NCBI GenBank assembly: GCA_947258845.1
Contig: CAMYJZ010000010.1
Span: 1-34,566, forward strand
DNA: 34,566 bases
Reading direction: 5' to 3'
Origin: an uncultured Ectothiorhodospiraceae bacterium
GTDB lineage: Bacteria; Pseudomonadota; Gammaproteobacteria; UBA9214
Under the pieces are notes generated by a model that saw only the letters and a list, made by a program, of their open reading frames with translations, made no database searches and had not been told where the DNA came from. The position numbers were made by a program, and so were the translations under genes. Positions 8,881 through 29,486 of this stretch are shown here, in pieces. The stretch's first letter is position 1, and each line of letters opens with the position of its first letter.

Positions 8881-11307
8881 TCAGTGCATGACCAGGGCGG
8901 CGAGCGCGTACAACACCAGGGCCGCGATAATCACCGCGCTAAAGCCGAACTGGATTGCCAGCAGGGTGGCCAGCACCGCACTGAGTACCGAGGCGCAACC
9001 ATTGATGCCCCAGGCCCAGGGCACGAGGGCGGGTCGTTCCGCGGCGATCCGGGCCAACCCGAGCGGGAACGGCATTCCCATAAAAAACGCCAGGGGTGCA
9101 ATCAGGGCAATCGCCACCAGGATGCGGATGACCACAGGCAGATGCATCAGGGCGGCAAACACCGGGTCGAGCAGCAGCAGGTAGAGCAGGCCGAACAGGG
9201 CGATACCGGACACCGCCCCGACGGTTGCGAGGCGTACAAGCCGCGGGCGTGCGTTCCGGCGTGCCGTCCAGGCGCTGCCGACACCGGCGAACAACAGAAA
9301 CGCGGTCAGTACAATCGCAACCGCATAGAGGGGGTGGTGCAGGAACAGGATGAACTTCTGGATGAAGGCGATCTCGACGAACAGGAAGGCCAGTCCGATG
9401 GCGAAAAAGTAGAGCACCACCCGGGCGGGACGGACCATGGATGCCTGCCCGTCCCGGTCGCCGCGCAGAGTCAGCAGCGGCAGCAGTATCAAAACAAGGC
9501 TCAGCACCAGCGCCTGCAGCAGGGTGGCCATCAGCACCAGGTAACCCGCCTCCAGTAGCGGCAGCCCGCCCTGACCGCGCAGGGCAAGGATCTCCGGGAG
9601 TACGTCCCACTTGAAGAAATGGAAGAAATACGGGCGGTCGTCCGTGGCCGGCGCGATGTCGAACTTGTAGCGCTCTATGAATGCCGCCCCCCGGGCGCCG
9701 GTCAGTGCCGCGGCCGCCTGGTAAAACCAGGGCCGGGCGAAGACATTGACCCGGTTGGCCAGGTCTGCCGGCATGCCGGGAAACCAGGCCGTATCGAAGG
9801 CCCGGGTCCGGCAGAAGGCCTGCAGACGGGCAATCTCGTCCGCACTGAAGACGCCGTTCTTCACCAGCAGGGTACTGGTCTGCCAGCCGCGGATCAGCAC
9901 CAGCCGTTCTCCGGGTGCCGTAATGCCGGAGGCCTGCAGTGCCCGTACTGCGGTGGCCATGAGTTTCAGGGTGTCGCGCGGCGGCAGCTTGATCCAGCGG
10001 CTGATGGCCAGGTAGCCACCGGGCGCGACGCGTGCCAGGTAGTCCTGCAGTGCCTCGACCGTGTACAGGTAACTTTCATTGAGCGCGTGCAGGCCACTGC
10101 TGGAGGCGCCGAAGGCATCCAGCAGGGCGATCTGCACCAGGCCCCAGGTTTCCTGGCTGCGCCGGACAAAACCGCGCGCCTCGCCGGCGTGGATGCGGAC
10201 GGCGGGGTGATCGTAGAGCTGCCCGGCCCACTCGGCATGCTCTTCCCTGACCAGGGCGATCAGCTGTGGATTGAGTTCCACGGCATCGATGTGCGGCACC
10301 CCGTGGTTGAGTGCCTGCTGGACGTCCGCACCGGCGCCGGCTCCCAGCACCAGCACTCGCTGCGGTTCGGCCAGGTAATAGGGCAGGGCCGAGGTCAGGT
10401 CATCCAGGTAGGCCAGGGCCTGCCTCTGCGGATTGTGGTTGATGGCCGTCATGCCGTCGGCGTCGGTGAACACACCGAGTTGTGCGGGCAGGGGCGCGCT
10501 TGAATGCAGGCTGAGCCCGGGTGCATGACGCAACGGGACTTGCGGGCTTTCGACCACGCTGACCAGTCCCAGCGGACTGGAATGCTGCTCTATGATGCGG
10601 GTGCCGCCGATGCGCAGGGTCTGGTTCAGGGACTTGTAGGGTGATGGCTGCGGTGCCAGCCATTCAGCCGGCAGGGCGAGCAGCAGCAGGGCGGCAAGCA
10701 GGGGGCCGGCCTGCCAGCGGGCGTGCGATCCGTGGAGTTCGCGGGCGGCCACCAGGCTGGCCAGCAGGCCGAGTGCCCCGAGCAGTTTCAGCGCCGTACC
10801 GGGGAAGACAAGGAACAGCAGCAGAACGATACCGAGGCTGCCCAGCCCCGCGCCCAGCAGGTCAACGGCATAGACGTGCGCGATTGCCCGCCGGTAACGG
10901 GTGAGTGTCAGTGCCACCGCGTTGGCCGCGAACAGGAACGGCAGGGCAAGCAGCAGGTAGACCGCGAACAGGTACAGGGCCTGGTGCCAGTCCCAGAGAA
11001 TCTCCTCGACGTTTAGCGGCAGCTGTTGTGCCGCCAGGGTGCAGGCAACGGCGGACAGCCCGAACAGGGCCAGGTTGATGCGGTAGACCCCGCTGAATCG
11101 CGCCAGCAGCCAGGGCCGTGCCAGCGCGATGAAGGTACCGCTGGCGCCATAGCCCAGCAGTGCCAGGCTGATGATCATGTAGGCGAAGTGATGCCACTGG
11201 ATGATCGAGAACAGGCGCATCAGCAGGATCTCGTAGCCCAGTGCAGCGGCTGAAATCAGGCTGATGGAGATCAGCGGCGGACGCTCCAGTGTCCCGGGCG
11301 CTGTCAT
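8881..11307 (-). CDS. Multi-pass membrane protein fused to a spermidine-synthase-like methyltransferase-fold domain
   Basis: 808 aa; N-terminal TM helices, central VLVLGAGAGADVQQALNHGVPHIDAVELNPQLIAL...DHPAVRIHAGEARGFVRR (Rossmann/spermidine synthase core), C-terminal TM helices. Confidence 0.85.
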   Translation of the reverse strand: MTAPGTLERPPLISISLISAAALGYEILLMRLFSIIQWHHFAYMIISLALLGYGASGTFIALARPWLLARFSGVYRINLALFGLSAVACTLAAQQLPLNVEEILWDWHQALYLFAVYLLLALPFLFAANAVALTLTRYRRAIAHVYAVDLLGAGLGSLGIVLLLFLVFPGTALKLLGALGLLASLVAARELHGSHARWQAGPLLAALLLLALPAEWLAPQPSPYKSLNQTLRIGGTRIIEQHSSPLGLVSVVESPQVPLRHAPGLSLHSSAPLPAQLGVFTDADGMTAINHNPQRQALAYLDDLTSALPYYLAEPQRVLVLGAGAGADVQQALNHGVPHIDAVELNPQLIALVREEHAEWAGQLYDHPAVRIHAGEARGFVRRSQETWGLVQIALLDAFGASSSGLHALNESYLYTVEALQDYLARVAPGGYLAISRWIKLPPRDTLKLMATAVRALQASGITAPGERLVLIRGWQTSTLLVKNGVFSADEIARLQAFCRTRAFDTAWFPGMPADLANRVNVFARPWFYQAAAALTGARGAAFIERYKFDIAPATDDRPYFFHFFKWDVLPEILALRGQGGLPLLEAGYLVLMATLLQALVLSLVLILLPLLTLRGDRDGQASMVRPARVVLYFFAIGLAFLFVEIAFIQKFILFLHHPLYAVAIVLTAFLLFAGVGSAWTARRNARPRLVRLATVGAVSGIALFGLLYLLLLDPVFAALMHLPVVIRILVAIALIAPLAFFMGMPFPLGLARIAAERPALVPWAWGINGCASVLSAVLATLLAIQFGFSAVIIAALVLYALAALVMH

Positions 11308-12058: not shown

Positions 12059-12221
12059 GACGTTGTGCTGCAAACTGTCGAATCGAATCTCCTGTGCTAA
12101 GCATAGTGCATCGGCTGGCCGGCTTCCCGCGAACGCTCTACAGCGGCCAGTTAGCGCCGCTACAGGGCGCTGGCTATAGTTAACAGTGTCCAGTCATCAT
12201 TTATCCCACAGCCCGGGTGTC

Positions 12222-14048
12222 ATGGAACATTCGCAGAGACCGGTCCTGATCTACGATGCTGAAAGCCCGCTGCGTGCCTGGCAGGCGCGCTACTGGCAGC
12301 GGTTGACCGGGAATGCCGTCGACTACCTGGCCTGCGGGGAACATGCGGTTCGATACCCGGAAATCCCCGCGGCGGAATGTCGCCGCACCATCCGGCTGAT
12401 TACGCCGCAGGGGCAGCACTTCACGGGTGCCGGCGCGGTGGCGCGGGTGTTGTCCCTGGGGGGGCGGCCCGTGGCCCGGCGTTGCCATCGTTACCTGCCG
12501 GGCTATGCCCGGGTCGCCGGGCATTTCCATGCCCTGGCCGCGCGCCATCCCGGTGCGACGTATGGACTTGCGCGGCTGCTGTGGGGGCGGGAGCGCCATC
12601 CACCCCGATACCAGCTGGTCAGCTGGCTGTTCCTGCGCCTGCTGGCGCTGATCTACCTGGCCGCGTTTGGTTCATTCGGTCTGCAGGCGGAGGGCCTGGT
12701 GGGCAGCCAGGGTATCCTGCCATTACAGCAGGACCTGCAGGCCATCAGCGCGGAGTACGGTGCGCGCGCTTACTGGTTATACCCGAGCCTGTTCTGGCTG
12801 AATGCCGGCGACACGGCCCTGCAGTTCGTCAGCCTGGCGGGGATCGGTGCCGCGCTGCTGCTGTTCGGGAACATCCTCACCCGGCTGATGTTGCCGCTGC
12901 TGTTCGTGCTCTATTTGTCGGTGGTCTATGCCGGCCAGGTGTTTTTCAACTTCCAGTGGGACTTCATGCTGCTGGAGGCCGGGTTCCTGGCCATGTTCCT
13001 GCCCTGGGGCTCGCCGCTGGTGATCTGGCTGTTTCACTGGCTGCTGTTCCGGGTGCGTTTCCTGTCCGGCATCGCCAAGCTGCAGAGCGGGGATCCGGCC
13101 TGGGCCAACTTCACCGCCCTGGACTACTACTTCGAAACCCAGCCGCTGCCGCATGCCGGGAGTTGGCTGGCGCACCAGCTGCCGGAGTTGATCCTGCGTG
13201 TCGGGGTGGGCTGGGTATTCTTCATGGAGTTGCTGGTGCCGTTCCTGGTGTTTCTGCCGCGGCGCCCGCGCCAGTTCGCGGCCTGGACCACCATCCTGAC
13301 CCAGGTTCTCATTATGCTGACCAGTAACCACAACTTCTTCAACCTGCTCAGCATCGCACTCTGCCTGTTGCTATTAGACGACCGCGCCCTGCAGCGCTTC
13401 CGTTTGCCGCTCGTGCGCCCGGGTTCTGGCTGGTTCGGCCGGGACAGGCCGAATAACGCAATCATAGGCCCGGGACGACTGGCGACGGCCAGTGCGGGAC
13501 TGCTGGCGGTGGCTATCGTGTCGTCCACGCTCACCATGATGTGGTCCACGCTGAGCAAGCAGCCATTGCCGGCCATAAATGAAGTCGTGGTCCGCGGCCT
13601 GGTGCAGTGGCATGTGATCAACAATTACCATGTGTTCCCGGTGATGACCACGGAACGTCCGGAACTCGTCATCGAGGGTTCCGGCGACGGGGAGACCTGG
13701 CAGGCCTACGGATTCCGCTACAAGCCGGGTGAGTTGACGCGCCGGCCGGTGTTCAATATCCCGCACCAGCCGCGCCTCGACTGGCAGATGTGGTTCGCGG
13801 CGCTGGCGCCCCCCTACACCCGGGTGTCCTACTGGATCCATGATTTTATCCAGCGCCTGCTGGAAGGTTCCCCGGACGTGCTGGCGTTACTGGAACACAA
13901 CCCGTTCCCCGGGCAGCCGCCGCGCTTCGTGCGCGCACGCCTGGAGCTCTACCGCTTCGCCAGTCCGGCGGAGAAAAAGTCGACCGGGCAGTGGTGGACC
14001 CGCGAGCCTGTGGGGCTCTATCTGCCGCCGCGGGAAAAGGGAGGGTAA
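12222..14048 (+). CDS. Lipase maturation factor family protein with N-terminal degenerate DCC (DUF393) domain
   Basis: N-terminus RPVLIYDAESPLRAWQARYW resembles DCC domains; LMF motifs LVSWLFLRLLALIYLAAFGSFGLQAEGLVGSQGILP, FFNFQWDFMLLEAGFLAMFLPW, RVRFLSGIAKLQSGDPAW, TSNHNFFNLLSIALCLLLLDD. A GTG start at 12186 is possible. Confidence 0.9.
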   Translation: MEHSQRPVLIYDAESPLRAWQARYWQRLTGNAVDYLACGEHAVRYPEIPAAECRRTIRLITPQGQHFTGAGAVARVLSLGGRPVARRCHRYLPGYARVAGHFHALAARHPGATYGLARLLWGRERHPPRYQLVSWLFLRLLALIYLAAFGSFGLQAEGLVGSQGILPLQQDLQAISAEYGARAYWLYPSLFWLNAGDTALQFVSLAGIGAALLLFGNILTRLMLPLLFVLYLSVVYAGQVFFNFQWDFMLLEAGFLAMFLPWGSPLVIWLFHWLLFRVRFLSGIAKLQSGDPAWANFTALDYYFETQPLPHAGSWLAHQLPELILRVGVGWVFFMELLVPFLVFLPRRPRQFAAWTTILTQVLIMLTSNHNFFNLLSIALCLLLLDDRALQRFRLPLVRPGSGWFGRDRPNNAIIGPGRLATASAGLLAVAIVSSTLTMMWSTLSKQPLPAINEVVVRGLVQWHVINNYHVFPVMTTERPELVIEGSGDGETWQAYGFRYKPGELTRRPVFNIPHQPRLDWQMWFAALAPPYTRVSYWIHDFIQRLLEGSPDVLALLEHNPFPGQPPRFVRARLELYRFASPAEKKSTGQWWTREPVGLYLPPREKGG

Positions 14049-16556: not shown

Positions 16557-17033
16557 ATGACCATGCTCAATGCAGGTGAACAGGCGCCAGCCATCGAGCT
16601 GCCCGATACCGATATGAAACCGCGCAGCCTGTCAGAATTCGCCGGCAGGTACGTGGTGCTGTATTTCTACCCCAAGGATGACACGCCTGGTTGCACCATA
16701 CAGGCCAGCGAGTTTACCGATCTCATCGACGAATTCGAGGGCGCGGATATCCAGATAGTCGGTATCAGTACCGACGACTGCTTCAGTCACCAGGCCTTTC
16801 GCGAGAAATACGGTCTCAGGGTGCTGCTGCTGGCGGATGTCGAACAAGAGGTCTGCAATCGCTACGGCGTGATCCAGGAGAAAGAGAAGCAGGGCATCAG
16901 GAAACTCGGGGTCGTCCGCTCGAGTTTTGTCATCGACCCGGCTGGGAAACTGGCCTATGTGGAATATGGCGTTACACCCAGGGACCATGCCAGAAAAATG
17001 CTGGAATTCGTCAAGGAGCATAGGCACGGATAG
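16557..17033 (+). CDS. bcp: Peroxiredoxin, BCP/PrxQ family
   Basis: VVLYFYPKDDTPGCTIQASEFTD, VGISTDDCFSHQAFREKYGL, VVRSSFVIDPAGKLAYVEYGV. Confidence 0.95.
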   Translation: MTMLNAGEQAPAIELPDTDMKPRSLSEFAGRYVVLYFYPKDDTPGCTIQASEFTDLIDEFEGADIQIVGISTDDCFSHQAFREKYGLRVLLLADVEQEVCNRYGVIQEKEKQGIRKLGVVRSSFVIDPAGKLAYVEYGVTPRDHARKMLEFVKEHRHG

Positions 17034-17080
17034 AGGAGGCAGGTTCATTAATTCGCAATAATGAATCTGCTCCTGTTCTG

Positions 17081-18184
17081 ATGCGTGTCCTCCTGCTGTC
17101 CGCGTATGACGCGTACAGTCACCGGCGCTGGCGCGAGGGCCTGGTGGCGGCATTTCCCGACTGGGACTGGAGCGTGCTCACGCTGCCGCCGCGTCATTTC
17201 AACTGGCGTATCCGCGGCAACAGTCTCAGCTGGGCGTTTACCGAGCAGGCCCGGCTTGCGCGGCCCTGCGATCTGCTGATTGCCACTTCCATGACAGACC
17301 TGGCCACCCTGAAGGGGCTGGTGCCGGGGCTGGCGGGCGTGCCGACCCTGGTGTATTGCCACGAGAATCAGTTTGCCTACCCGGTGGGGCGTGAGGAGAC
17401 GCTGCGTCTGGAGCCCCGCATGGTCAACCTCTACACCACGCTGGCCGCTGACCGGGTGGTATTCAATTCCGCCTGCAACCGCGATTCGTTTCTTGCCGGG
17501 GTACAGGCCCTGCTGGACAAAATGCCGGACGCGGTGCCACCGGGCATTGCCGGGCGGATCGGTGCGCGCAGCCGAATCCTGCCGGTACCGCTGGAGGCGC
17601 ACTGGTTTTCCCGGCGGCTGCCAGGGCCCGAAGCCGGTGCCCCGTTCACCATAGTCTGGAACCATCGCTGGGAATACGACAAGGCGCCGGAGCGCCTGTA
17701 TCAGGCCCTCCTGCAGCTGCGCGCGGCGGGTATCGAGTTCAGGGTGCATGTCATTGGCCAGCAGTTCCGCGAGCAGCCGCCGGTGTTTGCCGAAATGCAG
17801 CAGGCGCTTGCCGGTTGTATCGGGGAATGGGGCATGGTCCGGGATGCCGCGGACTACCGCGCGCTGCTGCGGCAGTCGCACGTGGTGCTGTCCACGGCCC
17901 GGCACGAGTTTCAGGGACTCGCGGTACTCGAGGCCGTGGCCTCGGGCTGCATCCCGCTGGTACCCGACCGGCTGGCCTACCCTGAATGGCTGGCTCCGGA
18001 ATACCGCTACCCGTCGTCGCCCGCTGATCCGGAACGGGAAAGCGGGGACATCGCCCGGCGACTTATGCTGCTCGCGGAGCAGCATACGCAGGGCGTGCTG
18101 CGCCCGCCGCCGGATGTCTCCGGCCTGTCCTGGTCACGCCTCGGGCCGGACTATGCGGCCGAGATCGGGCACCTGCTGTCGTGA
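17081..18184 (+). CDS. DUF3524 glycosyltransferase, homolog of tRNA-queuosine alpha-mannosyltransferase (QTMAN/GTDC1)
   Basis: MRVLLLSAYDAYSHRRWREGLVAAFPDWDWSVLTLPPRHFNWRIRGNSLSWAF, TSMTDLATLKGLVPGLAGVPTLVYCHENQFAYPV, then GT4-like C-terminus (WNHRWEYDKAPE, LSTARHEFQGLAVLEAVASGCIPLVPDRLAYPE). Confidence 0.88.
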   Translation: MRVLLLSAYDAYSHRRWREGLVAAFPDWDWSVLTLPPRHFNWRIRGNSLSWAFTEQARLARPCDLLIATSMTDLATLKGLVPGLAGVPTLVYCHENQFAYPVGREETLRLEPRMVNLYTTLAADRVVFNSACNRDSFLAGVQALLDKMPDAVPPGIAGRIGARSRILPVPLEAHWFSRRLPGPEAGAPFTIVWNHRWEYDKAPERLYQALLQLRAAGIEFRVHVIGQQFREQPPVFAEMQQALAGCIGEWGMVRDAADYRALLRQSHVVLSTARHEFQGLAVLEAVASGCIPLVPDRLAYPEWLAPEYRYPSSPADPERESGDIARRLMLLAEQHTQGVLRPPPDVSGLSWSRLGPDYAAEIGHLLS

Positions 18185-18691
18185 TCAGTACCCGTGGCGC
18201 CAGCCGGGCCCGTAACCGCGGTAGTGCCGGTAACCGGGACCGTAGTTGTACTCGTACCCATAGTCGGGCCGCAGGCGTTCATAATATTCATGTCGCTGCT
18301 CGGCTATTTGCTGTTGCCAGTCGCTGCGTGCCCGGTTCCATTGCCGGCGTGCTTCTGCGTCCGGGTTGTTCCACCAGCGGCGGGCGCTGCGATGGCGTTC
18401 CATGGCCTCCTTACGCGCATCTATTTGAGCCTTTCTGAGTTCGCGCATACGGTCCATGCGCCCGGTCCAGCGACTAACGCGGCTGGTTGTGGGCTGTTCC
18501 GCCTCTGCTGGTTCCGCCGCCGATTCGGCTTCCGGGGCTGCGGCCTGTTCGGCTTCCGGGGCCGCGGCCTGTTCGGTTTCCGGGGCTGCGGCGGGTTCGG
18601 TTTCCACGGCCCAGGCGCTACCCACCGTACCGGTCAGTGCCAGGCTGATCAGCACGGCAAGCGGCAGCTGTCTTGGGTTTCCTGTTTTCAT
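18185..18691 (-). CDS. Secreted low-complexity protein with Ala/Glu/Pro repeats and Tyr/Gly/Arg-rich tail
   Basis: Signal peptide MKTGNPRQLPLAVLISLALTGTVGSAWA; (EQAAAPEA)n; RYGYGPGWRHGY-like tail. Overlapping plus-strand frame rejected. Confidence 0.75.
   Translation of the reverse strand: MKTGNPRQLPLAVLISLALTGTVGSAWAVETEPAAAPETEQAAAPEAEQAAAPEAESAAEPAEAEQPTTSRVSRWTGRMDRMRELRKAQIDARKEAMERHRSARRWWNNPDAEARRQWNRARSDWQQQIAEQRHEYYERLRPDYGYEYNYGPGYRHYRGYGPGWRHGY
18522..18606 (-). repeat. 24-bp tandem repeat encoding 8-aa EQAAAPEA units
   Basis: Near-identical units ttcggcttccggggctgcggcctg / ttcggcttccggggccgcggcctg / ttcggtttccggggctgcggcggg. Confidence 0.8.
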
Positions 18692-18895
18692 GTTGACCTC
18701 CAAATGCTGATTGCCGGAACACCATCAGTGGTATCCGGCCATTGTTTGCGCCTGATCTCGATTTTATCCCTTCCGGGTTGCTGCAGCCTTGACGCCCGTC
18801 AATTCCGCCCGTGTCCCCGGCCCGGCTTGCAGCGGGTGTCGCCGGCGACTACGGTCAGTCTATGCTGGCGATCTACGGAATCGGATCAACTAACA

Positions 18896-19777
18896 ATGAC
18901 ATCGGACAGACAGACAGTCGTGCACGGCGGGCATTCAACCCAGCGGCCGCTGCCGCTGGTATTGCGGGGTATGCGCCTGCTGTTTTCCCGAATTGGGCCC
19001 GTACTTCCTGGCCTTATGGGACGCTGGGCCTACCGCTTGTGGTTCCGGACCCGGCGGTTCCCCGAGTCGGCCACCGGCAAACAGGCGAGCAGCCGTGCCC
19101 TGCGCAGCACCCTGCAGGTCAACGGCATCCCGGTTGCCGTCTATGCCTGGGGGCAGGGTCCGGTGGTGCTGTTCGTGCATGGCTGGTCGGGGCGTGGCAG
19201 CCAGGCCGCGGCCTTTGTCGAGCCCCTGACAGGCGCAGGCTACCGGGTGGTGGCGGTGGACGCCCCCGGGCATGGCAATTCGCCGGGTGATCGGACCACC
19301 CTGTTTGAATGTGCGGCCGTTTTGCAGGCGGTTGCCGGGGAGCAGGGTCCCGTGTACGCGGCGGTAACCCATTCCTTTGGCGGTATGGTGCTCGCCTATG
19401 CCATGCGCCATGGTATGGCGGTCGAGCGGGTGGTGATGATCAGTCCGCCTGCCGATCTGGAGTTTCTGCTCGACAGTTTTGCACAGTTGCTCGAAATGCC
19501 CGCGGCAGTGAGAGCCGTGTTGAGCTGCAAGCTGGAGCAGCGTTTTGATGCAGACCTCATGGACCGGGTCTCTACCGTACGCAACGTCAGTACCCTTGCC
19601 GTGCCTGCCCTGATCCTGCATGACGAGGATGATGCGAGCGTGCCCTGGCAGCAAGGTCAGCGGGTCGCTACTGCCTGGGCAGGCACCCGCTTCATCAAAA
19701 CGCAGGGCCTGGGCCACGGACGCATCCTGCGCGACCCCCAAACACTCGAGGCGGTTGTTGAATTCATTAAGGGCTGA
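18896..19777 (+). CDS. Alpha/beta hydrolase
   Basis: VVLFVHGWSGRGSQAAAFVEPLTGAGYRVVAVDAPGHGNSPG, VTHSFGGMVLAYAMRHG, ALILHDEDDASVPWQQG, GLGHGRILRD. Start at ATG 18896 (MTSDRQTVVHGG). Confidence 0.88.
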   Translation: MTSDRQTVVHGGHSTQRPLPLVLRGMRLLFSRIGPVLPGLMGRWAYRLWFRTRRFPESATGKQASSRALRSTLQVNGIPVAVYAWGQGPVVLFVHGWSGRGSQAAAFVEPLTGAGYRVVAVDAPGHGNSPGDRTTLFECAAVLQAVAGEQGPVYAAVTHSFGGMVLAYAMRHGMAVERVVMISPPADLEFLLDSFAQLLEMPAAVRAVLSCKLEQRFDADLMDRVSTVRNVSTLAVPALILHDEDDASVPWQQGQRVATAWAGTRFIKTQGLGHGRILRDPQTLEAVVEFIKG

Positions 19778-19833
19778 ACCGCGGGCACCCTGAGCTTGGA
19801 CTCCGTGTGCCCCCGCGTTATCCTGACAAGCAC

Positions 19834-20316
19834 ATGAAGCTTTATCTTGCACAACACGGTGAAGCAGAGACCAGTGAGGTCGATCCCGAACGCCCCCTGA
19901 GCGGACAGGGCCGGGAGGATGTACAGGCCATGGCTGCCTTGCTGGCCTCTTCCGGCGTGCGGGTTGAGCGTGTCTGGCACAGCGGCAAACTGCGCGCGCA
20001 GCAGACCGCACTGATACTGGCCGGCGAGTTGCTGACTGCTGGCAAGGCGGAGCCGATTGACGGGATTCGTCCGAATGACCCGGTCGAGGCCTTTGTTGCG
20101 GATGTCGACGTCTGGGAGCAGGACACCCTGCTAGTCGGCCACTTGCCATTCATGGCGCGCCTGGTGTCGCTGCTCCTGACCGGTAACCCGCAGCGGGACG
20201 TCGTGGATTATCAACCCGGTAGTGTCGCCTGCCTGGAACGGCGTGATGCTGATGCGTGGGTGCTGGCCTGGATGATCCGCCCGGATCTGCTGGCCAGGGG
20301 TGCCGAAGACCTGTGA
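19834..20316 (+). CDS. SixA-like phosphohistidine phosphatase (histidine phosphatase superfamily)
   Basis: MKLYLAQHGEAETSEVDPERPLSGQGREDV, VWHSGKLRAQQTALIL, DTLLVGHLPFMARLVSLLL. Confidence 0.88.
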   Translation: MKLYLAQHGEAETSEVDPERPLSGQGREDVQAMAALLASSGVRVERVWHSGKLRAQQTALILAGELLTAGKAEPIDGIRPNDPVEAFVADVDVWEQDTLLVGHLPFMARLVSLLLTGNPQRDVVDYQPGSVACLERRDADAWVLAWMIRPDLLARGAEDL

Positions 20317-20879: not shown

Positions 20880-21023
20880 ATGAACAAATCACGTCAACCG
20901 GGTGCTGTGTGTGCCGTTTTGTCCACACTTTTCATCATGACAGCCAATGCACCATTTACTGGCCGCCTGCCAACAACCCCAGGCGGTAGTGACTGCCAGG
21001 CATATTACGATGACCAGCTGTAG
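20880..21023 (+). CDS. Possible short secreted peptide or remnant
   Basis: MNKSRQPGAVCAVLSTLFIMTANAPFTGRLPTTPGGSDCQAYYDDQL*; hydrophobic N-terminal segment; ends just before the PLD-like gene. Not in the supplied track (47 aa). Confidence 0.3.
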   Translation: MNKSRQPGAVCAVLSTLFIMTANAPFTGRLPTTPGGSDCQAYYDDQL

Positions 21024-21057
21024 ATTACTTGATCGGCCAATGCCAATATCAACCCAC

Positions 21058-23526
21058 ATGAATCCGCGTAGCCCCAATATTTCTCACGAGCACAGTGAAC
21101 AATACGGGAAAAAAGTAATTATTCGACTGGTTGCGTTCTGGGTTGCTTTCGTATGGGCTGTAAATTGTGCGGCCTCTCCTCCACCTTTATTGATTGCGGG
21201 ATTCCTGTCAAATCCGCTCGACGGTACCTCGGTGGAGAATACAAACCAGGCGGGCGAGGCCATCTTGTTGGTGAACACCACCGATACTGTGCTGGCCCTG
21301 GACAATTACGCTATCACTGATTTTGAACCCGGTGTCACAAACCAGGCTGTCTTTCCGCCGGGTTCTGTGCTGGGGCCATATGGGCGGCTGTGGATCGCCC
21401 GGGATGCCGCTGTATTTTTCCGCGACATGGGTTTTGCACCCGACTATGAGAGCGGGGCCCTGAATGGCGACCCCAATGTACCCAATCTGGATATTCCGCT
21501 AGATTTACTCTCACTGGACCACACAGGGGATGAGGTGGCGATTACCATCGCGGGTGATCACACCAATGTTGTTGATCTGGTGCTGATCTCTGCCGGTGAC
21601 AGTTACGACGATGCAGCGGTCCTCATCAATGCCAACTGGTCGGGTGCCGGTGTCGAACCGTATATTCCTCCAGTAATGGGTACACGGGGGACGCTCGAAA
21701 TGCGTAAGATTGTGGACAACCAGTTTGTCGATACGGATACGGCGGTTGATTGGATTTCCGAGACAGTGACGGTTACCTACCCCGTGCTCGGCCGGCGAAC
21801 CTTTCGCGCAGGCTGGCTGGTCGACGCCTATCTCGATGGTCCACTGGAGGTGACGGTACCCAGCACCTTTTCAGTCTATTTGTCACCGGACAATGCGTAT
21901 GAAGGGGTAAGAGATCTTATCCAGAGCGCCCAGGAGTCGATCCTGCTCAAGACCTATCTGTTTGATAGTCAAAGCATCACTAACCTGCTCATCCAGAGAC
22001 TCCAGGCCGGTGTTTCCGTCACGGTTCTCATGGATTTCGGAGATGAAAATCCTCGCAGTGCAAAAGACACCCCACTCAATCAAAGGGCCAGGCATGTGGC
22101 TGAACAACTGACGAACGCGGGTGGGCAGTTCTTCTATAAGCGCGCCCCCAGCAGTACACGTGCCAGCCGTTTTTACCTGATGCACGAGAAATCTATTATC
22201 GTCGACGGGGAGCGTGTGATGTGGGGTTCAGGAAATCCCTCACCGTCTTCATTCCCACCGGATGACAAGTCCGATGGCGTCACCTTCGCGAACCGCGATG
22301 GTTGGGCTATGACTGACGCACCCCCGATCGTTTCGTACCTGACCGACGTGTTCTATCAGGACCTGTCGGGATACGATATGTTTGAGTATCCGGCCGGGCC
22401 CGAGGGGCTAGAGGAGTTCCGCTGGCTGCAGGGCATGAAAACTGCCTTCAATGCCCTTCCCGACACGACCAGTTATGAGATTCGCCACCCTGAGCCGCTC
22501 GAGGTTCAGGGCGATATCGGCTACGAGCTTGTGCTTGGGCCCGAGAATGTCCTGATGCAGGGGCGTGGAAACCTCGACCTGGTTAATCGGGCCGGTGCCG
22601 GGGATGTTATCCTGGCGCAGGTAAACATAACCTCTACCTGGGACGGTGAGGCTGCACTCAATACACGGCTACAGTCCTACGTCGAGGCGGCCCGTCGTGG
22701 TGCCAGGGTACGTATATTGATCGATGGCTACCATGTTGTTACAGAGCGCAATCTACCTATCTATAACTACCTACTTGGTATTATAGCCGCCGAAGATATC
22801 GACCTAGAGACCCAGATGGGTCTTGCAGGCGCCAAACGTTTGCATAACAAGTTGATATTGGCCGAGATTAATGGTGAGAAATTTGCTTCAATCGGATCGC
22901 TCAATGAGAGCGAGAAAGCCTACAAGCTTACTCGCGAACTACAGATAATTGTGAAATCCGATGCAGTCCACACCTATCTGAGGAATATGTTCGATCTTGA
23001 CTGGGCCTGCAATGCGGATCCGGCTGAATGCATAGCTCCCGTGCAGCCCGATGCAGATCTCGATGGAATATTGGATTCTGTAGATAACTGTCCCTGGATT
23101 GCCAACAGTAACCAGCTCGATGCCGACAATGATGGTGTTGGTGACGCATGTGATAATGGTGATAGTGATAGCGATGGTCTGAATGATGCAGATGAGGTTG
23201 CTGCGGGCACCGACCCGCTGAATCCCGATACCGACGGGGACACTTACCTGGACGGCGAGGAGGTTGCGGCAGGTTCAGATCCGCTGGATCCAGCCTCGGT
23301 TCCCACGCCTCCTGATGGCGATCTGAATAACGACGGTGTGGTCAATGCTGCGGACGTATTGATTGCCACTCGCATTATATTTGGGTTTATTACAGCTACA
23401 CCGGATCAACAGCTGCGCATGGACGTTGCGCCTTTAGCTGATGGTGTGCCGATGCCAGATGGTGCGCTCAACACAGCAGACCTTTACATTATCCTGCGCA
23501 AGGCCACTGGCCAGATTAGCTTCTAG
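21058..23526 (+). CDS. Secreted phospholipase D-like protein: lamin-tail-like, two HKD-type motifs, TSP3 Ca-binding repeats, dockerin-like C-terminus
   Basis: MHEKSIIVDGERVMWGSGNPS and RLHNKLILAEINGEKFASIGSLNESE (HKD motifs); DADLDGILDSVDNCPWIANSNQLDADNDGVGDACDNGDSDSDGLNDADEV; DGDLNNDGVVNAADVLIATRII...DGALNTADLYIILRKATGQ. ORF opens at 20947; start uncertain. Confidence 0.85.
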   Translation: MNPRSPNISHEHSEQYGKKVIIRLVAFWVAFVWAVNCAASPPPLLIAGFLSNPLDGTSVENTNQAGEAILLVNTTDTVLALDNYAITDFEPGVTNQAVFPPGSVLGPYGRLWIARDAAVFFRDMGFAPDYESGALNGDPNVPNLDIPLDLLSLDHTGDEVAITIAGDHTNVVDLVLISAGDSYDDAAVLINANWSGAGVEPYIPPVMGTRGTLEMRKIVDNQFVDTDTAVDWISETVTVTYPVLGRRTFRAGWLVDAYLDGPLEVTVPSTFSVYLSPDNAYEGVRDLIQSAQESILLKTYLFDSQSITNLLIQRLQAGVSVTVLMDFGDENPRSAKDTPLNQRARHVAEQLTNAGGQFFYKRAPSSTRASRFYLMHEKSIIVDGERVMWGSGNPSPSSFPPDDKSDGVTFANRDGWAMTDAPPIVSYLTDVFYQDLSGYDMFEYPAGPEGLEEFRWLQGMKTAFNALPDTTSYEIRHPEPLEVQGDIGYELVLGPENVLMQGRGNLDLVNRAGAGDVILAQVNITSTWDGEAALNTRLQSYVEAARRGARVRILIDGYHVVTERNLPIYNYLLGIIAAEDIDLETQMGLAGAKRLHNKLILAEINGEKFASIGSLNESEKAYKLTRELQIIVKSDAVHTYLRNMFDLDWACNADPAECIAPVQPDADLDGILDSVDNCPWIANSNQLDADNDGVGDACDNGDSDSDGLNDADEVAAGTDPLNPDTDGDTYLDGEEVAAGSDPLDPASVPTPPDGDLNNDGVVNAADVLIATRIIFGFITATPDQQLRMDVAPLADGVPMPDGALNTADLYIILRKATGQISF

Positions 23527-28994: not shown

Positions 28995-29486
28995 ATGCAC
29001 AACCGTTACCGCCAGTTCTACCGCTACCCCATACTGGCCCTGCTGATTGCACTGCTGGGCGCCTGCGCCACCCTGGGTCCCTACAAGGAGCCGCCGCGCG
29101 TTTCCCTGGCAAGTATCCAGCCGAAGCAGATGGGCCTGCTGGAGCAGCGCTATGGCCTGCAACTCAGGATTCTGAATCCCAATGACACGGCGATTCCTCT
29201 CGAGGGTCTGAGCTACACCCTGGAGATCAATGGCCGCGAATTCGCCTACGGGGTCAGCCGGCAGTCGGTCTCGATCCCGGCCTACGGCGAGGCCCTGCTG
29301 GACGTCGATGTGGTGAGCAATCTGCTGAACGTGCTGCAACAGGTGCAGGAGATGGGCGCCGAAAAGCGCAGCAGTCTCAACTACCGCCTGTCGGGGAAGA
29401 TGAACCTGGCCAGCCGGGTCGCTTCGCTGCCGTTCGACTACCAGGGTGAACTGAACTACCTGCCGGCGGATGCGGCCGCGCCCTGA
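28995..29486 (+). CDS. LEA type 2 (WHy domain) lipoprotein
   Basis: Lipobox-like LLALLIALLGACATL; YGLQLRILNPNDTAIPLEGLSYTLEINGREFAYGVS. Confidence 0.85.
   Translation: MHNRYRQFYRYPILALLIALLGACATLGPYKEPPRVSLASIQPKQMGLLEQRYGLQLRILNPNDTAIPLEGLSYTLEINGREFAYGVSRQSVSIPAYGEALLDVDVVSNLLNVLQQVQEMGAEKRSSLNYRLSGKMNLASRVASLPFDYQGELNYLPADAAAP

Follow-up and report, generated by a model that had tools for sequence, protein, structure and literature searches.

The window analysed here, a stretch of 34,566 nucleotides of bacterial DNA, contains a gene that raises the question of whether bacteria, like animals, place a sugar on queuosine (Q) in their tRNA. Animals salvage queuine, and in their tRNA-Asp the allylic 3-OH of Q bears mannose (PMC12518689). 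In our literature search, glycosylated queuosine was described from animals, and no bacterial report was found. The first-pass annotation had assigned the gene to the DUF3524/GTDC1 family, that of the tRNA-queuosine mannosyltransferase QTMAN, and had suggested with reserve that the bacterium may make a glycosylated queuosine or use the family on another substrate. The gene and its parts are as follows.

17081..18184, plus strand: QTMAN-family glycosyltransferase gene, 367 aa; ATG start, no internal stop, domain matches, orthologues in the genus
17084..17593, plus strand: QTMAN_N (PF12038), presumably the acceptor half of the GT-B fold; the profile is matched along its full length (E=1.0e-56 in the genome-level search)
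17198..17221, plus strand: F-x-W-R-I-R-G-N motif, residues 40-47; W42, R43, R45, G46 and N47 invariant in an alignment of 22 homologues
17360..17383, plus strand: H-E-N-Q-F-A-Y-P motif, residues 94-101; H94, E95, N96, Q97, F98 and P101 invariant in the 22 homologues
17645..18004, plus strand: GT4 donor-sugar-nucleotide domain (PF00534); Pfam match, and Foldseek matches to GT-B GT4 enzymes
17660..17683, plus strand: N-H-R-W-E-Y-D-K, residues 194-201; R196 and K201 invariant in the 22 homologues
17903..17932, plus strand: H-[ED]-F-Q-G-L-A-V-L-E, residues 275-284; the E-x7-E motif found in retaining GT4 enzymes

The frame is a real, intact gene under purifying selection, because orthologues from the same genus, at 83% identity, give a dN/dS of about 0.21-0.23 and take most of their substitutions at third codon positions. 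A profile search of the genome found it to be the sole QTMAN copy. The long antisense open reading frame at 17048-18085 was ruled out as a gene, since homologues carry several stops in that frame.

The proposed family membership was borne out and, judged by sequence profiles, can be regarded as established. PF12038 (QTMAN_N, formerly DUF3524) covers residues 2-171 along profile positions 1-168 of 168 (E=5.1e-56; 189.5 bits against a cut-off of 25), and the GT4 donor domain is matched at residues 189-308 by PF00534 and PF13692, each above its cut-off. Both motifs quoted in the first-pass annotation were recovered, LLLSAYDAYSHRRWREGL at residues 4-21 and VYCHENQFAYPV at residues 91-102. The NCBIfam profile search of the protein gave no model above its cut-off.

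The AlphaFold model (pLDDT 87.5, pTM 0.86) predicts a GT-B fold. When it was submitted to Foldseek, the nearest solved folds were GT-B GT4 enzymes, including PimA with GDP-Man (2gej, TM 0.68). The sequence search retrieved no solved structure of a homologue, and the profile search reached only distant GT4 enzymes. In GT4 enzymes, the C-terminal domain binds the sugar nucleotide through an Arg/Lys pair and the E-x7-E motif, and the active site includes a histidine of the N-terminal domain. The corresponding E-x7-E of the window protein is E276-x7-E284, with E or D at the first position among homologues. By analogy, H94 is a candidate for the active-site histidine, and R196 and K201 probably form the diphosphate-binding pair. 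The 22 aligned homologues are divergent, yet the N-domain motifs are invariant, and F-x-W-R-I-R-G-N together with H-E-N-Q-F-x-Y-P would be the best candidate for recognition of the modified anticodon.

The reading that we favour, with modest confidence, is that the protein glycosylates queuosine in tRNA, mannose being the likeliest sugar. Catalysis, a GDP-mannose donor and a queuosine acceptor are what we infer here. The protein would be a QTMAN-family glycosyltransferase of the GT-B/GT4 type, cytosolic and retaining. It would link a hexose to a hydroxyl of the queuosine cyclopentene-diol at position 34, the sugar probably being alpha-mannose and the donor GDP-mannose. The acceptor would be one or more GUN-anticodon tRNAs, and the bacterium would thereby make glycosylated queuosine. 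Supplied with GDP-alpha-mannose, a retaining enzyme would leave the mannose alpha-linked, which is its configuration in animal manQ.

The genes around the locus were then compared with those of its relatives. The immediate neighbours in the window are the following.

16557..17033, plus strand: peroxiredoxin (AhpC/TSA, PrxQ-like), upstream; no counterpart found in the compared loci of relatives
18194..19777, plus strand: alpha/beta hydrolase, downstream; true start probably within the open reading frame, relatives aligning from about residue 139-207
19807..20316, plus strand: histidine-phosphatase-like protein, downstream

The order QTMAN, alpha/beta hydrolase, histidine-phosphatase-like gene is kept in the window's own family, and no link to queuosine or tRNA was found among the flanking genes of that family. 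Elsewhere, the commonest neighbour is trpS (27 clustered loci; 30 by tblastn), and genes of translation or housekeeping (trpS, tsaB, adk) recur next to the gene across the loci examined. We rejected trpS as a clue to queuosine, since the tRNA of TrpRS, with its CCA anticodon, is no Q substrate; it indicates a translation neighbourhood only. In three Spongiibacteraceae genomes (Spongiibacter, Zhongshania), queA-tgt lies about 4.5 kb from QTMAN-trpS, and two more loci (L073 and L076) have queA near QTMAN. These lineages are related, so the proximity may go back to a single event or to two. In Marinobacter xestospongiae, a single gene separates manC from QTMAN.

Elsewhere in the window, 12186-14048 encodes a bacterial homologue of the lipase maturation factor LMF1, both of whose Pfam domains are matched (E about 1e-47); the family is known chiefly from eukaryotes. 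The 859-aa protein at 20947-23526 combines a lamin-tail-like stretch, PLD-like domains in two stretches and TSP3 repeats. On the minus strand, 8881-11307 encodes an 808-aa protein with a weak spermine-synthase domain at mid-protein and 86% conservation in the genus, and 28995-29486 encodes a bacterial LEA_2 (late embryogenesis abundant) domain protein.

The QTMAN family was found in 16 of 57 relatives of the host genome, whose closest named relatives are uncultured Ectothiorhodospiraceae, and it is patchy across Pseudomonadota (26 of 398 sampled genomes). At least 585 loci in the public genome collection encode relatives; the best 80 of these belong mostly to Marinobacter, Marinobacterium, Microbulbifer, Amphritea, Spongiibacteraceae and Mariprofundus, with one Myxococcales bin. 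In the tree, the window protein groups with its own family (support 100/98). The plasmid search returned no QTMAN homologue, and no contig in the viral search encoded a full-length one; on these two results, an origin of the window gene in a mobile element was rejected. The family is thus already known and large, and it is a demonstrated bacterial activity that would be new.

These data bear on a different reading, in which the GT4 enzyme has shifted to a substrate other than queuosine, such as an envelope polysaccharide or a small metabolite. Many GT4 enzymes build glycans, the window protein has weak profile matches to EpsE and RfaG, and manC, which is enriched among carriers (see below), also serves exopolysaccharide synthesis. 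However, the acceptor domain matches QTMAN_N from end to end, the recurrent neighbours belong to translation and housekeeping, and plasmid copies are lacking; we consider such a shift improbable.

Glycosylation of queuosine presupposes queuosine in the cell, and the first-pass annotation had held that a host without queuosine synthesis or salvage would speak against its proposal. At first sight the host is such a case, as the genome search found neither queA nor tgt in its assembly. However, queG, whose product serves specifically the final step of queuosine synthesis, was found (G000:C14:24154-25164, E=1.3e-148), as it is in all 33 good-quality genomes of the carrier and relative set. Two genomes of the same genus (G001 and G004) carry queA and tgt, and in this genus the two genes directly precede secD and secF (e.g. 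locus L120). The nearly universal secD was not found in the host assembly either, where the search gave only weak matches within proteins of about 1,060 aa. We therefore read the absence of queA and tgt as a likely assembly gap, since the adjoining secD is missing too and the same-genus genomes have all three; a true loss of queuosine, with queG in place, was rejected as the likely reading. The assembly comprises 160 contigs and 2.35 Mb, whereas two same-genus genomes of 95-100% completeness have 3.2-3.3 Mb; it is rated 94% complete, yet it is without queA, tgt, secD and manC. For these reasons, absences in it should not be trusted.

Across the phylum sample, queA was found in all 25 other QTMAN carriers. 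This co-occurrence (p=0.82) has no power as proof of a Q substrate, because 386 of the 398 genomes (97%) carry queA.

The supply of the donor was assessed through manC, which makes GDP-mannose and also serves polysaccharide synthesis. It scored above its cut-off in 24 of 26 QTMAN carriers versus 274 of 372 non-carriers, a mild enrichment (one-sided Fisher p=0.022, uncorrected for relatedness, with 13 genera). In the host assembly manC was not found, whereas both same-genus genomes tested (G001 and G004) have it; for its absence from the host, unlike that of queA and tgt, there is no more specific explanation than the general incompleteness of the assembly.

The choice of tRNA is less straightforward. 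In bacteria, GluQRS (YadB) glutamylates Q34 of tRNA-Asp (PMC4425180, PMC3542578). The host genome encodes GluQRS (TIGR03838; 377 bits against a cut-off of 276.7), as do, above that cut-off, all 19 gammaproteobacterial QTMAN carriers of the sample, the host included. Mutual exclusion of QTMAN and GluQRS, expected if both need Q34 of tRNA-Asp, was rejected by this coexistence. The tRNA-Asp target named in the first-pass annotation, taken from the vertebrate enzyme, is thus not transferable, because an enzyme acting on that very position is encoded in the same genome and in the gammaproteobacterial carriers. In bacteria, tRNA-Asp as the QTMAN target is contested and doubtful and cannot be assumed: either the two marks compete, or bacterial QTMAN takes another Q-tRNA or another hydroxyl.

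Queuosine might also be glycosylated in a manner unlike that of vertebrate QTMAN, on another tRNA (Tyr, His or Asn), on another hydroxyl or with a sugar other than mannose. This is suggested by GluQRS, which uses the cyclopentenediol of tRNA-Asp Q34 in the host and its fellow carriers, by the manC missing from the host genome, and by the likeness to the vertebrate enzyme, which comes from the Pfam profile only. However, GluQ modification may be partial, so that both enzymes could share tRNA-Asp, and nearly all carriers have manC. We regard a departure of this kind as rather unlikely, though it is the strongest competitor to the favoured reading of mannose on tRNA queuosine.

A further line of evidence came from phages. 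The window protein was compared by tblastn with 50,697 phage records at E up to 5; 19 records matched, 18 of them from one glycosyltransferase group. In the following phages, the gene lies among QueE, QueD, GTP cyclohydrolase (FolE) or TGT-like genes: ACP17 (host Acidovorax), PA5oct-like phages (Pseudomonas), Phosso (Sinorhizobium), X1 (Xanthomonas) and BUCT-ZZ01 (a Synechococcus phage). The phage loci are listed below.

L140:2287-3315, L148:7995-9056, L144:7995-9086, L146:7950-9110 and L145:7998-9164: phage glycosyltransferase loci
L150-L199: viral loci

Such 7-deazaguanine genes occurred in the fetched flanks of 41 of 50 viral contigs with the phage glycosyltransferase family; of 79 control loci centred on a recombinase gene, 2 had them. 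The PhiXhv branch is an exception to this clustering. In Xanthomonas phage PhiXhv-15 (L147:5747-8981), the glycosyltransferase adjoins a GlmS-like aminotransferase and an N-acetylglucosaminyl-malate-deacetylase-like gene, with no queuosine genes.

The similarity of the phage proteins to QTMAN is confined to the donor domain, with a profile probability of 99%. Local profile alignment gave no sign that the acceptor domains of phage and bacterial proteins share an ancestor, and a global alignment of them is meaningless. The structure search lists the ACP17 protein second among viral proteins, and no plasmid-encoded relative of it better than E=0.7 was found. The phage clusters support a 7-deazaguanine substrate for the window family and suggest that phage DNA contains a glycosylated 7-deazaguanine; our literature search found no description of the latter, in a limited literature that leaves its novelty unproven. 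They also bring up the idea that the bacterial enzyme acts on a free queuosine-type base or nucleoside, or on 7-deazaguanine in DNA, and not on tRNA. The location of the phage donor-domain relatives in DNA-modification clusters speaks for it, but the acceptor domains differ and the bacterial N domain belongs to a tRNA enzyme family, and we hold this to be highly improbable.

The hedged proposal of the first-pass annotation, glycosylated queuosine or another substrate, is therefore consistent with everything found, although not proven. It gained strength from host queG, same-genus queA and tgt, the manC enrichment, the proximity of QTMAN to queA-tgt in Spongiibacteraceae and the phage 7-deazaguanine clusters. 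Sugar-decorated queuosine in bacteria is a good and easily tested prediction. A wider picture, which we offer as tentative and short of an even chance, is that QTMAN-made sugar-queuosine is present, beside glutamyl-queuosine, in the tRNA of many Gammaproteobacteria and Zetaproteobacteria of the sea and of sediments, and that 7-deazaguanine in phage DNA is decorated by a phage glycosyltransferase family whose donor domain is related. If both were true, 7-deazaguanine glycosylation would be a widespread chemistry of tRNA and DNA. If the bacterial family does glycosylate queuosine, the role of the modification could be studied by straightforward genetics in natural carriers, of which there are hundreds. 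Because GluQRS is present in the same genomes, one could then ask cleanly on which tRNA and which hydroxyl the enzyme acts and whether the two marks compete. The DNA modification to which the phage clusters point could be tested by mass spectrometry of phage DNA.

Compared with known systems, the window protein resembles animal QTMAN/GTDC1, the tRNA-queuosine alpha-mannosyltransferase, in the whole N-terminal domain, the two-domain GT-B layout and the E-x7-E donor domain. It differs in being bacterial and 367 aa long, from a lineage that is predicted to make Q de novo and has GluQRS, and its substrate is a candidate only. The retaining GT4 enzymes PimA (2gej), PglA (8dqd) and RfaG (2iv7) share its fold and donor-domain motif but are without the QTMAN_N acceptor domain, and the fold matches have 10-18% identity. 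GluQRS is likewise a bacterial enzyme that decorates the Q34 cyclopentenediol (PMC4425180, PMC3542578) and is found with the QTMAN homologue in the host, the two not being mutually exclusive; however, it adds glutamate and has an unrelated fold, that of an aminoacyl-tRNA synthetase paralogue. The phage glycosyltransferase family (ACP17 ASD50404, PA5oct, Phosso, X1 and BUCT-ZZ01) has an acceptor domain that is not recognisably related and is encoded in phage 7-deazaguanine clusters, whereas its donor domain is alike and has the VPDRLxYxE stretch in common with the window protein.
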